From Rhodospirillales bacterium (GTDB lineage: Bacteria > Pseudomonadota > Alphaproteobacteria > Rhodospirillales > JASLLV01), in assembly GCA_030746935.1 (NCBI GenBank), contig JASLLV010000007.1:1-34900 (forward strand): a stretch of DNA of 34,900 nucleotides. Reading direction: 5' to 3'. Below the pieces are notes generated by a model. The model was not told where the DNA came from, ran no database searches, and saw nothing but the letters and a program-made list of their open reading frames with translations. Numbering within the stretch: position 1 is the stretch's first letter; each line of letters begins with the position of its first letter. Shown one piece after another: positions 1,020-7,628 of this stretch. Both the position numbers and the translations under genes were made by a program.

Positions 1020-3599
1020 TCAAAGGGTGCGCACTAGCTCCTCGACCCGGTAGCACTCGATTACGTCGCCCTCGCGATAGTCCTGGAACCTCTCGAACGC
1101 GACGCCGCATTCGGTGCCTTCTCTCACTTCCCGGGCGTCGTCCTTGAACCGCTTCAGCTGCGAGAGCTCGCCCTCGTGCACGATGACGTCGTCGCGCAAC
1201 AGGCGCACCCGCGAGCCGCGCTGGATGGTTCCTTCCGTGACCATGCAGCCCGCGACCTTGCCCACCTTGGACACGCTGAAGACCTTGAGGATTTCCGCGG
1301 ACCCCAGCGAGTGTTCCTTCAACGCCGGCGCAAGCATGCCCGAAAGAGCACCCTTGAGATCATCGACGATCTCGTAAATCACCGAGTAGTAACGGATTTC
1401 GACGTCTTCGCGGCGCGCGAGCTCGCGCGCCTGGCGGTTGGCGCGGACACCGAAGCCGATGACGAGCGCGTTCGACGAACGCGCGAGCGTCACGTCGGCT
1501 TCGTTGATTCCGCCGACGCCCGCGTGCAGCACGTCGACCTTGACCTCGTCGGTTTCGAGACCCTTCAGCGCGCCCTCGATCGCTTCGGTCGAGCCGTGGG
1601 CGTCGGCCTTGATGACGACCGGCAGCTCTTGGGCGCCGCCTTCCTGGATCCTGTCGAACATCTGGTCCACTGTCCCGCGCACGCTTGCGGCCGCCCGCGT
1701 GTCGCGCTCCTTGCGCTTGCGGAACTCGGACACCTGACGCGCGCGGGCCTCGCTGTCGACAACGACGAAGTCGTCTCCGGCAGCCGGCGTATCGTTCAAC
1801 CCTTGGACTTCGACCGGCGTTGCGGGCCCGGCTTCGTCGGCGCTTTCACCGTGGGCGTCCATCAAGGCGCGCACGCGGCCCCACGCCCGCCCCGCGACGA
1901 GGACGTCGCCGACCCGAAGGGTTCCGTTGCGCACCAGGACGGTGGCGATCGATCCGCGGCCCTGCTCCATCCTCGATTCGATAATCACGCCGTCGGTTGC
2001 GCCTTCGGCGGCGGCCTTAAGATCGAGAATTTCAGCCTGGAGAAGGATGGCTTCCTCGAGCTTGTCGAGGTTGTTCCGCTCCTTGGCCGAGATCTCCACG
2101 TTCAACGTTTCGCCGCCCACCTCCTCGACCACGATGTCGTGCTGGAGAAGCTCGGTGCGGACGCGCCCCGGATCGGCGTTGGGACGGTCGATCTTGTTGA
2201 TGGCGACGATCACCGGCACATTCGCCGCCTTCGCGTGGTGGATGGCTTCGATCGTTTGCGGCATGACGCCATCGTCCGCCGCAACGACGAGGACGACGAT
2301 GTCGGTGATTCCGGCGCCGCGGCCTCGCATATCGGTGAAGGCCTCGTGGCCGGGCGTGTCGATGAATGTAATCTTGCCGCCCGATGACAGGGTGACCTGG
2401 TAGGCACCGATGTGCTGGGTGATTCCCCCGGCCTCGAGCGAGACCTGGTCGGTCTCGCGCAACGCGTCCAGAAGCGACGTCTTGCCGTGATCGACGTGGC
2501 CCATGACCGTCACCACCGGAGGCCGCGGCTGCTTGGAGCTTTCCTCGCCGTCGTCGCGCCCCAGTCCGATTTCGACGTCGGCCTCGCTCACCCGTTTGAC
2601 GTTGTGTCCGAACTCGGTGGCGACAACCTCGGCCGTATCGCCGTCGATGGACTGGTTGATGGTCGCCATGACGCCCATCTTCATGAGCGCCTTGATCACC
2701 TCGGAGCCGCGTTCGGCCATGCGGTTGGCGAGCTCCTGGACCAGAATCGCCTCGGGGATCGTCACGTCCCGGACGATCTTCTGGCCCTCGCCGTCGGCGT
2801 CGCGCAGAAGTTTCAGTCTCTCCTTCTCACGCGCCCGGCGAACCGACGCCAACGAGCGCGCCTTCTCGTCGGCATCACTAAGGGCGCTGGCGATCGTCAG
2901 TTTCGACGACCGCCGGCGGGGCTCGCCGCGGCGCGCCGAGATACCCGGACGTCCCGGCCTCTTGCCGCGGGGACGCTCCTCGGCCTCCTCGGGCTCACCG
3001 CCTTCCAGGGACTTGAGCTTCGCGGCGGCCAGCGCCGCGGCGGCCTTGGCCTGCTCCTCGCGGCGGTGCGCCTCCTCGTCCTCGGCCTTGCGGCGCGCCT
3101 CCTCCTCTTCGCGGCGGAGCGTCTCCTCCTCTTCGGCCTGGCGGCGTGCCACTTCGGCCGCCGCCTCGAGCTCCTCGGCCGTCGGCGCGGTTTCCGGCGC
3201 CTCTTCTCCCGCTTCACGTTGGGCGTCGTGGCGCGTCTGTTCCGAAACCCGGTGCGCGTCTTCGAGCGCGCGGACACGAACCGCCTTCTCTTCGGTCGTC
3301 AAATGGGCACCGGCCGCCGCGCCGGCGGCGGCGGGTGCGCGCGCGACCGTCGCGGCCCCGGACGCCGGCGTCGCTTCGCCGCCCTCCCTGACCTCGGTCG
3401 ACTCGCCTGACTGATCGAGGGCGTAGGTCCGCTTTCGCCGGACCTCGACGGCAACGACCTTGGACCGGCCGTGCGAGAAGCTCTGACGAACCTGGCCGCC
3501 CTCGACCGTCTTCTTGGTCTCGAGCTTCTCCGGCTGGGCCAAGCTCAAGGGCTTCTTTCGGGCCCTCTCGTCCGTCTCTTGTTCCTTCGTCTCGCTCAT
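1020..3599 (-). CDS. infB: Translation initiation factor IF-2
   Basis: 859-aa ORF with VTVMGHVDHGKTSLLDALR, DTPGHEAF and NKID G motifs; low-complexity charged N-terminus typical of IF-2. Confidence 0.98.
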   Translation of the reverse strand: MSETKEQETDERARKKPLSLAQPEKLETKKTVEGGQVRQSFSHGRSKVVAVEVRRKRTYALDQSGESTEVREGGEATPASGAATVARAPAAAGAAAGAHLTTEEKAVRVRALEDAHRVSEQTRHDAQREAGEEAPETAPTAEELEAAAEVARRQAEEEETLRREEEEARRKAEDEEAHRREEQAKAAAALAAAKLKSLEGGEPEEAEERPRGKRPGRPGISARRGEPRRRSSKLTIASALSDADEKARSLASVRRAREKERLKLLRDADGEGQKIVRDVTIPEAILVQELANRMAERGSEVIKALMKMGVMATINQSIDGDTAEVVATEFGHNVKRVSEADVEIGLGRDDGEESSKQPRPPVVTVMGHVDHGKTSLLDALRETDQVSLEAGGITQHIGAYQVTLSSGGKITFIDTPGHEAFTDMRGRGAGITDIVVLVVAADDGVMPQTIEAIHHAKAANVPVIVAINKIDRPNADPGRVRTELLQHDIVVEEVGGETLNVEISAKERNNLDKLEEAILLQAEILDLKAAAEGATDGVIIESRMEQGRGSIATVLVRNGTLRVGDVLVAGRAWGRVRALMDAHGESADEAGPATPVEVQGLNDTPAAGDDFVVVDSEARARQVSEFRKRKERDTRAAASVRGTVDQMFDRIQEGGAQELPVVIKADAHGSTEAIEGALKGLETDEVKVDVLHAGVGGINEADVTLARSSNALVIGFGVRANRQARELARREDVEIRYYSVIYEIVDDLKGALSGMLAPALKEHSLGSAEILKVFSVSKVGKVAGCMVTEGTIQRGSRVRLLRDDVIVHEGELSQLKRFKDDAREVREGTECGVAFERFQDYREGDVIECYRVEELVRTL

Positions 3600-3634: not shown

Positions 3635-4342
3635 TTATCCATTTCCGCCGACCACCGCCGGATTGGATTCATGCCGCCCGGCGGCCTGGCACCGGTACTC
3701 GAGAAGGCGCCCGACCTCGTCCTTCAGGCGTTGGGCGAAGCGTCCCGGCGCGATGACGAAGCAAACACCGAACGAACGCCCCATGGCGGCCCCGAGCGCG
3801 TCGCCCTCGAACGCCTCGATCAACGGAATATCGCGCGCCAGCGCCTTGAGTTTTTGGCGCGCGGACGGCGAGCCGTCCACGGCTGCGAACACGACGCCGC
3901 CCCGGCCAGCGTTGATCCACGCCTTTACTTTTTCGAACCCGGCCGCCGCCTCGCCCGCCCGCCGAGCGAGCCCGACGAGATCGAGGCAACGACGGGCCAT
4001 CAACCCCTCCACCCGATCGGCCAGATCAGCGGGAACGGTGACGCGCGCCCTCGCCGCCTTGGCGAACGCATTCGTAGCGCACGCCGTATTTACCACATCG
4101 CGACGCGACCTCAACCACAATCCGCGACCCGGTAGGCGGCCGTCGAGGTCCGGTACAAGCGTGCCATCGGGGGCGACGACGAACCTAAGCAGCGCCGATT
4201 TCGGGAGTCGCGCGCCGGACACGAGACACCGGCGCACGGGCAAGGGCGCGGCGGCGATGGGGCCGCTCGTGAACTCGCCCGAAACCTTCGGGTGTGGCCT
4301 CACGGCCCTCCGACGCTCGCCGGTCCTCGATCGAACAGCCAT
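3635..4342 (-). CDS. YlxR (DUF448) plus L7Ae-like RNA-binding protein
   Basis: 235 aa; N-terminal RRCLVSGARLPKSALLRFVVAPDGTLVPDLDGRLPGRGLWLRSRRD is YlxR-like; C-terminal half L7Ae/L30e-like; position between nusA and infB. Confidence 0.88.
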   Translation of the reverse strand: MAVRSRTGERRRAVRPHPKVSGEFTSGPIAAAPLPVRRCLVSGARLPKSALLRFVVAPDGTLVPDLDGRLPGRGLWLRSRRDVVNTACATNAFAKAARARVTVPADLADRVEGLMARRCLDLVGLARRAGEAAAGFEKVKAWINAGRGGVVFAAVDGSPSARQKLKALARDIPLIEAFEGDALGAAMGRSFGVCFVIAPGRFAQRLKDEVGRLLEYRCQAAGRHESNPAVVGGNG

Positions 4343-4363: not shown

Positions 4364-5977
4364 CTAAACCGACGGTTCCTTAGGCACGGATTCGGCGCCG
4401 GCGGCGGCGTCCTCCGGGATCCGCGGTTGCGTGCCCTCGTCTTCGGCACCTCCGTCCGGCGTCGGGACATCCTCGCCCTCAAACCAGTGCGCCCTCGCCG
4501 CCATGATGATCTCGTTCGCCTTCTCGACGCTCAGCACACCCTCGGGCACGACCTCAAGAAGCTCGTCGCTCGCGAGATCGCCGAGGTCGTCGAGCGTCTT
4601 GACGCCGTTCTCGCCGAGAGCGACGAGACAGGCCGGGGTCAGTCCCTCGATCCCGGCGACGTCATCGGAGACACCGAGTTCTTGGCGAAGCCGCGAGTGT
4701 TCGGCGTCTTTCTCGGCAAGGAAAACGCGGCCGCGTTCCTGCAATTCCACGGCGACGCTTTCGTCGAACCCCTCGATCTCGACGAGGTCTCCGGTCGGCA
4801 CGAACGCCACTTCCTCGACCGTGGAAAACCCCTCCGTCACCAGGAGGTGCGCGATCACTTCGTCGACGTCGAGGGAATCGATGAACATTTGCGAAAGCGA
4901 GCGGAATTCCTCGGTGCGGCGCTCCGATTCCTCGGCCTCGGTCAGGATGTCGATGTCCCAGCCGGTGAGCTGCGAAGCCAGCCGCACGTTCTGCCCGCGC
5001 CGGCCGATCGCGAGGCTGAGCTGGTCGTCCGGCACCGCCACCTCGATACGGTGGGCCTCTTCGTCGAGGACGACCTTCGCCACTTCGGCCGGCGCCAGCG
5101 CGTTGACGATGAAGGTCGCGGGATCGGGCGACCACTGGATGATGTCGATCTTTTCGCCCTGAAGCTCGCCGACCACCGCCTGGACCCGCGATCCGCGCAT
5201 ACCCACGCAGGCGCCGACAGGATCGATGCTGGAGTCGCTGGAAATCACCGCGATCTTGGCGCGCGAGCCCGGATCTCGGGCCACCGCCTTGATCTCGATG
5301 ATCCCGTCGTAGATTTCCGGGACCTCCTGGGCGAACAGACTAGCCATGAAATGCGGATGGCTGCGCGAGAGGAAGATCTGGGGCCCGCGCGGTTCCTCGC
5401 GGACCGCGACGATGTGGGCGCGGACCCGGTCGCCGTTGGAAAAATGCTCCCGGGGAATGCATTCGTCGCGCCGCAGCAGCGCTTCGGCCCTCCCCAGATC
5501 GACGATCACGTTTCCGAACTCGACGCGCTTCACGAGGCCGTTGACGATTTCGCCTTCCCGGTCCTTGAACTCCTCGTACTGCCGCTTGCGTTCGGCCTCG
5601 CGCACCTTCTGGACGATAACCTGCTTCGCGGTTTGGGCGGCGATTCGCCCGAAGTCGATGGGCGGCAGGGGTTCGATCAGGAACTCGCCGAGCTCGGCGT
5701 CGGACTTCCGCTTGCGTGCCGTCTCCAAATCGACCTGCGTCACCTCGTCCTCGATTTCCTCGGCCACCTCGAGGTAGCGGGCCAGCTTGATGGAGCCGGA
5801 TTCGCGGTCGATCGCCGCGCGAATGTCGTGCTCGTGTCCGTATTTTGACCGGCCGGCCCTTTGGATCGCCTGTTCCATGGCCTCAAGAACCTCTTCGCGG
5901 TCGATGCCCTTGTCACGAGCCACCGTTTCCGCCACCTGCAGAAGCTCCAGACGCGTGTAGACTGCCTCATTTTCCAT
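4364..5977 (-). CDS. nusA: Transcription termination/antitermination factor NusA
   Basis: 537 aa; S1/KH region ([31 protein letters not shown]) and acidic C-terminus. Confidence 0.97.
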
Positions 5978-5997: not shown

Positions 5998-6516
5998 TCA
6001 CTGTTCGCGCTCTTTGCGCAACAACGCGTCGGTTAAAACCAGTTTCGCCCGCGTGATGTCGTCGATGGCAATGGCATGCTCTGTGCCGTCGATGTCGATA
6101 CGCACCGCACCGCCGTCGAGGCCCAGGAGCCGGCCACGAAAGCGCCTTCGCCCGTCGATCGCGCGGGCCGTGGTCAGCTTGGCCTCGCGGCCCGCGAAGC
6201 GCTCGAAATCCTCGGGTCGAACCAACGGACGATCGATTCCGGGCGAACTCACCTCAAGCGTATAGGAGCCGACGATGGGATCGTCCACAACCAAGACCGC
6301 CGAGATCGCGCGCGAGATGTCGGCACATTCGTCGACCGTGATCGATCCGCCGTCGTGACGCTCTGCCATGATCTGCAACCGGGGCCTTTGATCGCCGAGC
6401 ACCAGTACCCGGACGATTTCAAACCCGCGCTCGCGCACGGCCGGCGCGATCAGGCGTTCGATCCGGCGCGCCAGATCCGCGTCGAATGCGCGTGGGTCGT
6501 GACCATTTCGCGGCAT
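5998..6516 (-). CDS. rimP: Ribosome maturation factor RimP
   Basis: Translation from MPRNGHDPRAFDADLARRIERLIAPAVRERGFEIVRV...YTLEVSSPGIDRPL; upstream of nusA; the longer ORF in the track (to 6645) runs through a terminator hairpin. Confidence 0.93.
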   Translation of the reverse strand: MPRNGHDPRAFDADLARRIERLIAPAVRERGFEIVRVLVLGDQRPRLQIMAERHDGGSITVDECADISRAISAVLVVDDPIVGSYTLEVSSPGIDRPLVRPEDFERFAGREAKLTTARAIDGRRRFRGRLLGLDGGAVRIDIDGTEHAIAIDDITRAKLVLTDALLRKEREQ

Positions 6517-6610
6517 TGGCGGCTTCGAGCAAAATAAAGGGTGGGCCGCCGGCCCACCCTCGTCCATTCCGATCATCAAGGGCGACATTCGTAACGCAGC
6601 ATCTGCGCCA
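6517..6610 (-). ncRNA. rimP operon 5' leader (candidate attenuator RNA)
   Basis: Short leader between the putative promoter and rimP ATG with hairpin CGCAG-ATG-CTGCG (6595-6607) and a downstream terminator hairpin. Confidence 0.5.
6531..6560 (-). terminator. Rho-independent terminator/attenuator in the rimP operon leader
   Basis: Perfect 10-bp inverted repeat agggtgggcc-gcc-ggcccaccct (6538-6560); on the minus strand followed by TTATTTT. Confidence 0.85.
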
Positions 6611-6615
6611 CAACA

Positions 6616-6645
6616 AATATATACTCCGATCCGCGCCGAATACAA
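6616..6645 (-). promoter_or_regulatory. Putative sigma70-type promoter of the rimP-nusA-infB operon
   Basis: Minus strand TTGTAT (6645-6640), then TATATA (16-bp spacer) or TATATT (18-bp spacer), about 95 nt upstream of the rimP start. Confidence 0.5.
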
Positions 6646-6774
6646 GGGAGCCGTTCGTCGGCCGGGCGGCCGAGTTTTGCGCGTTTCCAGCCGTCGCGGC
6701 CGCGGCTACGGCGAGATCGCATTCCACTCGCTTGGAATTGCACCCCCGGCACCGGCTTAACGGGTAAGGCGCCT

Positions 6775-6910
6775 AGACCCGATCGCGGTCGATCGGAGCC
6801 GCGATGCGTTTCGATCAAACGCGCCGACCCGCTCGAACTCCATGGTGGCGACCAGAATTGCGCGGTCTGTGAATCGCGGTTAGCGGTTCCGATCGACCGC
6901 GATCGGGTCT
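6775..6910. repeat. Palindromic intergenic element: 28-bp inverted repeat arms flanking an internal hairpin
   Basis: agacccgatcgcggtcgatcgg (6775-6796) is the exact reverse complement of 6889-6910; extends to 28 bp (6775-6802 / 6883-6910) with one mismatch; internal gcgttt-cgatc-aaacgc (6806-6822). Confidence 0.85.
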
Positions 6911-7628
6911 AAGCGCGCGGCCGGCGCACGAACCGCAAGTGCACGCACGCGCGCCCCTGGCGTTCGGCCTTGGCCTCGTAGCGGGTCACGATCGCGTCGC
7001 CGGGACGGCGCCAGTCCGCGCGCGTCCGGGCGGTCCACGCAAAACGCGCATCCCGGCCCACGACGTCGAGGGTCTGGCGCACGTATTTGGCATGATCGCT
7101 CGCGAACCGGAGCTCCGCTCCGTCGCGCATGATACGGGCGAGGGCATCCAGGTTCTCGGCCGAGACGAAGCGGCGGGCGGCGTGGCGTGTCTTGGGCCAG
7201 GGATCGGGGAAAAGAACGAAAACCCGACCGACGCTCGCGTCCGGAAGCCGCCTCATCAACAGGCGGGCATCATCGTCGAAGATGCGGATGTTCATAATTT
7301 CGTCTTGCGCCATACGGGCGAGCAGCGCCGCAATTCCGTTGACGAACACCTCGCATCCGATGAGTCCGACGTCGGGATTCGCGCGCGCTTGGGCGGCTAA
7401 GTGTTCGCCCGATCCGAAACCGACCTCGAGCCACAACTCGCGGACGGGCCAGGAAAACAGGGTGTCGGTCCGGATGGAACCGGATTCGGGCACCGCCAGG
7501 CGCATCACGGGCAACATGTCTGCGATCAGCTTTCGGCGTCCGGGGCGAAGACCGTGCCCGCGCCGGCGCCCGTACAACCACCCGTGCGATCGAGTATCCG
7601 GCGATGCGTCCCGCTCGCGGCCGCTCAA
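6909..7628 (-). CDS. trmB: tRNA (guanine-N7)-methyltransferase TrmB, probable TTG start overlapping the metK stop
   Basis: [18 protein letters not shown]...[16 protein letters not shown]...[22 protein letters not shown] start at 7628 overlaps metK TGA. Confidence 0.92.

Follow-up and report, generated by a model that had tools for sequence, protein, structure and literature searches.

The rimP-nusA-ylxR-infB-rbfA-truB operon of this Rhodospirillales bacterium is probably controlled by a transcription attenuator of the rimP-leader type, with NusA as its likeliest signal. The window is a stretch of 34,900 nucleotides that carries the leader and genes of the operon. The sequence of the leader, its conservation, its position, its specificity to rimP and two pairings that compete in silico were all observed. 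The rimP-leader is already known as a very widespread control element. What is added here, with moderate support from comparative sequence, is an overlapping candidate antiterminator hairpin that appears to be conserved in related bacteria.

The leader and its operon

The leader, on the minus strand, was read directly from the sequence; it lies in the spacer that runs from the trmB stop (6909) to the rimP ATG (6516). The genes that follow on its 3' side are rimP, nusA, ylxR/L7Ae, infB, rbfA, and truB. In the RimP alignment, the closest named relatives belong to Rhodospirillaceae, Kiloniellaceae, Azospirillum, and Thalassobaculum, among others, and all named relatives are Alphaproteobacteria. 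The features of the leader and the genes it precedes are listed in Table 1.

Table 1. Features of the rimP leader and the downstream operon in the window.
Feature	Position	Strand	Basis and remarks
-35-like hexamer TTGTAT	6640..6645	minus	Sequence reading; same in congener G001; comparable TTG hexamers, correspondingly spaced, in other genomes of the order
Alternative -10 TATATA	6623-6618	minus	Spacer of 16 nt to TTGTAT
-10-like hexamer TATATT	6616..6621	minus	Spacer of 18 nt to TTGTAT; preferred choice
5' leader hairpin TTGTGGCGCAG-ATG-CTGCGTTACGA	6589..6613	minus	Fold; 7-11 bp according to start site
Candidate antiterminator 5' arm TCGCCCTTG	6577..6585	minus	Predicted pairing with 6562-6554; order-wide analogue supported
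Shared arm CGAGGGTGG	6554..6562	minus	Candidate antiterminator 3' arm; overlaps terminator 5' arm by 8 bases
Terminator hairpin GAGGGTGGGCC-GGC-GGCCCACCCTT, GGGC...GCCC core	6537..6561	minus	Sequence reading, folding, conservation before rimP
T-rich tract TATTTT	6531..6536	minus	Sequence reading
rimP	5998..6516	minus	Pfam RimP_N and RimP C-terminal SH3 domain
nusA, suggested feedback regulator	4364..5977	minus	Pfam NusA_N, S1, KH_5
ylxR / L7Ae-like gene	3635..4342	minus	Pfam YlxR, Ribosomal_L7Ae
infB (encodes IF2)	1020..3599	minus	Pfam IF-2, GTP_EFTU

The first-pass annotation had described a promoter-like TTGTAT/TATATA followed by a perfect 10-bp hairpin plus TTATTTT, and had read the whole as an attenuator leader of rimP-nusA-infB. 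The promoter-like elements were confirmed on the minus strand, with TATATT as the better -10. The hairpin had been described essentially correctly; it is read here as 11 bp, made up of 10 Watson-Crick pairs and one terminal G-U, and is followed by TATTTT. An attenuator leader is still the best reading, and the arrangement is conserved, but the overlapping antiterminator-like hairpin and the 5' leader hairpin had been missed.

The promoter is absent from the scanner's list because TTGTAT matches TTGACA at only three of six positions. TATATT stands about 55 nt from the terminator hairpin. Across the order, -10-like hexamers are concentrated 40-69 nt 5' of the terminator arm (57 of 77 counted), and the best promoter score had a mean of 8.14, compared with 6.83 in shuffles. 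Comparative backing for this putative promoter is good. The block from 6655 to 6517 is 91% identical in congener G001, the rimP coding sequence is 84% identical, and the spacer farther upstream than 6655 can barely be aligned. In this congener, the promoter-leader block is conserved at least as much as the coding sequence.

The terminator hairpin has a predicted folding energy of -21.7 kcal/mol. In a generic scan of 16 kb, it was the top of 11 terminator-like sites and the sole one with 11 pairs. The threshold of the scanner is loose, and a shuffled region yields a mean of 12.7 such sites, so the generic count alone is no proof. In the organism's own whole genome, this hairpin pattern was found at a single site.

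Two other elements of the spacer were explored. The 5' leader hairpin, with its ATG loop, is kept in congener G001, where A-T stands in place of one G-C pair, a compensatory change. No such hairpin was seen in other families, which places it at the genus level. A small frame, ATGCTGCGTTACGAATGTCGCCCTTGA (MLRYECRP), runs from 6602 to 6576 and covers the antiterminator 5' arm. In the congener it has a GTG start and is without the early stop. The idea of a leader peptide was rejected, as the frame is not conserved there.

The spacer that separates the rimP promoter from the trmB stop contains, at 6771-6914, a palindromic interspersed repeat of ~145 bp with terminal inverted repeats of ~28 bp. It has 41 matches in its own genome and 24 in congener G001, where it is missing from the same spacer, and no matches in three other families. 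By its sequence and distribution, it appears to be a genus-level MITE/REP-like element. A miRNA-like Rfam match at the same position was rejected, since the region is a palindromic interspersed repeat and the score was below the family cutoff.

Conservation of the terminator before rimP

A GGGC...GCCC-type terminator with a T-run stands before rimP in nearly all of the 58 same-order genomes that were read. A hairpin of the rimP-terminator type is also present in most of 80 named alphaproteobacterial loci, where an automatic search found 72, a few of them doubtful. In other alphaproteobacterial families, a terminator-like hairpin precedes rimP in 37 of 40 (13% in dinucleotide shuffles) and the exact GGGC..GCCC motif does so in 29 of 40 (0.5% in dinucleotide shuffles). 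The presence of the hairpin upstream of rimP is far beyond chance.

The motif was also made into a covariance model, R1, and run against 115 whole genomes. It gave 11 matches at E<=0.01, and all 11 were located just upstream of rimP. With its strict filters the scan is specific and not sensitive (11 of 115 genomes), and the prevalence figures rest on direct reading of 40 upstream regions and not on R1. Within the window, R1 matched only the terminator part (model positions 35-64). In the terminator helix, 100% of the cells are paired, with compensatory changes. In these comparisons, conservation extends over the order for the promoter-terminator-rimP arrangement and over the class for the terminator. 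The GGGC...GCCC core seems to be strongly conserved only before rimP, which hints at a partner that recognizes this sequence and not at just any terminator.

Alternatively, the hairpin could serve to end the upstream metK-trmB transcript, with no relation to rimP regulation. The gene trmB does lie upstream in the same direction in the window, as it does in 37 of the 80 named loci. However, loci with no TrmB found upstream still have the hairpin, and therefore the element goes with rimP and does not serve as a terminator for trmB. The motif follows rimP across genomes, and the putative promoter is placed at a conserved distance between trmB and the hairpin. In addition, the 15 nt from the end of the T-tract (6531) to the rimP ATG (6516) are too short for another ordinary promoter and an untranslated leader. 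A metK-trmB terminator is thus highly improbable and, on these comparisons, appears largely refuted.

A candidate antiterminator

A second pairing could compete with the terminator. When TCGCCCTTG pairs with CGAGGGTGG, 8 of the 11 bases of the terminator arm are taken up. Minimum-energy folds of the growing chain gave the antiterminator while the terminator 3' arm was missing and the terminator once it had emerged. Many relatives possess a hairpin with a 3' arm that runs into the terminator 5' arm, for example CACTTTAATT...AATTAAAGTG and CATTCTTGTATTCCCG...CGGGATTGTGAGGGTG, each running directly into GGCC. The window's own antiterminator is weaker than the order consensus and shifted from it.

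Pairing in the upstream helix was compared with dinucleotide shuffles. The family mean z was -0.92 (35 groups, t = -3.8), while two control positions gave -0.27 and +0.13, and p<=0.05 was reached in 14 of 50 genomes. In a sequence-only alignment of 19 leaders, which were picked for a visible hairpin, 77% of the antiterminator cells pair, compared with at most 58% when slid. Covariation among related rimP upstream regions, which the first-pass annotation had advised to look for, was found in part: beside the compensatory changes of the terminator, these 19 leaders gave an antiterminator covariation score of 0.40 versus 0.28 in shuffles, but a fixed-register swap of arms between genomes was not significant. 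In that test, whose power is limited by bulged family variants and by G-U tolerance, pairing was 0.58 at the expected register versus 0.55 when swapped, with no significant covariation. Pairing did peak at the expected register, at 0.58 compared with 0.42-0.51 when slid by up to 3. RNAalifold returned no structure from the MAFFT alignment. An energy-based swap of terminator arms (0 of 3000 permutations) was dropped as proof because a control region farther upstream gave the same. This swap is confounded, probably by composition, and so the earlier family-level version falls too. Taken as sequence evidence, these results give moderate support for the overlapping hairpin as an antiterminator.

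Other forms of the leader are present in the class. Leaders of Rhodobacterales (L087-L139) have AGCGGCG, a hairpin, and CCACCGGAAA before ACGGGCCGCGCGCCCGTTTTTTTGTG. This appears to be a distinct conserved form without the overlapping antiterminator. Five leaders from Azospirillum, Skermanella, Niveispirillum, and a relative (L063, L064, L066, L123, and L130) have (C)CATACGG or similar, followed by a long hairpin, with TTTGCGGGTGGGC in the terminator region. In these same leaders, CCCATACG with TGCGGGTGGG may possibly be another antiterminator form. Within the order, too, some families show no overlapping antiterminator.

In 39 of 50 genomes, the terminator has the greater stability of the two, and the upstream hairpin may therefore be only transient. 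The element could then be a terminator of fixed efficiency without regulation, which trims the operon to a set level and makes a short leader RNA, the overlapping hairpin being a folding intermediate. The moderate evidence for the antiterminator, unshown outside part of the class, also agrees with this. Such a terminator is rather unlikely: upstream pairing is above the controls, and a GGGC...GCCC core that is strongly conserved before rimP only points to a sequence-specific partner.

Proposed mechanism and relation to known systems

For the attenuator, we infer a transcription start near 6609. As the leader emerges in the cell, TCGCCCTTG would pair first with CGAGGGTGG and act as the antiterminator. 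Once the C-rich arm emerges, the stabler terminator GGGTGGGCC/GGCCCACCC would displace it, and transcription would end ~80 nt from the start, before rimP. Because the antiterminator comes first in the folds and the terminator follows when its 3' arm is out, the default would be premature termination after about 80 nt. The share of polymerases that escape would set expression of the operon, and escape would depend on polymerase speed and bound factors. Ample NusA would favor pausing and terminator folding, a negative feedback, and the operon would be read when NusA is scarce. By analogy with known systems, this negative feedback is plausible and is the best-supported signal. More tentatively, the rimP-leader of this alphaproteobacterial order could work as a genuine switch between two states. 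Its overlapping antiterminator would set it apart from the gammaproteobacterial tandem leader, and NusA level or 30S-assembly status would determine read-through into rimP-nusA-infB.

The switch may instead answer to a signal other than NusA, such as cold, a ribosome passing over the small frame, or an action of RimP or of a ribosomal protein on the leader. The products of the operon serve 30S assembly and translation initiation, the operon mRNA goes up in the cold in E. coli (PMC6511841), and the small frame spans the antiterminator 5' arm. However, no known riboswitch, T-box, or ribosomal-protein leader matched the window at the Rfam gathering level, and in the congener the frame begins with GTG and lacks the early stop. 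NusA is also the regulator favored for the rimP-leader by Naville and Gautheret (2010; PMC2965389), who predicted the regulation itself. A signal other than NusA is considered improbable.

The rimP-leader is the most ubiquitous bacterial attenuator according to these authors (PMC2965389), and the first-pass annotation was correct that rimP leader attenuators have been described for bacteria. Its general form is a GGGc...gCCC terminator with a U-stretch, 4-130 nt before rimP and specific to this gene (PMC2965389). The window has the same kind of stem, GGGTGGGCC-GGC-GGCCCACCC, with a G-rich 5' arm and a C-rich 3' arm, and the U-stretch is provided by TTTATTTT, which covers the end of the stem and the bases that follow. 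The stem ends at 6537 and the T-tract at 6531, within the 4-130 nt range from the ATG at 6516. The motif is specific to rimP, with 11 of 11 genome matches there and one site in its own genome. In all of these sequence features, the window leader appears to be the rimP-leader attenuator of Naville and Gautheret. It differs in the upstream hairpin, which in the window as in many relatives shares bases with the terminator arm; Naville and Gautheret saw no antiterminator outside some Gammaproteobacteria (PMC2965389). In the literature searched, which left most subscription journals outside, no report was found of an antiterminator in an alphaproteobacterial rimP leader.

A search with the Rfam rimP-leader model, as the first-pass annotation had advised, did not recover the element. 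RF01770 gave no match to the window, either at the gathering level or at E<=10, and none at E<=1 in eight alphaproteobacterial loci, while the E. coli positive control scored 102 bits. The second hairpin of RF01770 shares the TGGGC...GCCC-T(n) core (E. coli CTGGGCTTTAGGCCCTTTTTTT), but the first tandem terminator, with CCCg...cGGG, is lacking in the window leader, where no such hairpin followed by a T-run was seen. The gammaproteobacterial rimP leader was rejected on both grounds. In the loci tested, no Rfam model matched the rimP-leader outside its gammaproteobacterial form, and the switch goes unseen in most lineages. If the antiterminator is true, its covariation in one order would give a concrete structure for the sensing of NusA by operons that encode NusA and IF2, and the leaders that bear it could serve as the seed of the missing RNA family model.

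The E. coli operon is regulated by its own product NusA and has two terminators upstream of rimP (PMC6511841). In B. subtilis, NusA stimulates termination within the leader of the operon that encodes it (Mondal et al., 2016, summarized in PMC12288461). According to that summary, NusA dependence is demonstrated in B. subtilis; here the operon encodes a NusA with S1 and KH domains, whose effect on the leader is proposed by analogy. What the two systems have in common is an intrinsic terminator, here a predicted one, in the 5' leader of an operon that encodes NusA.
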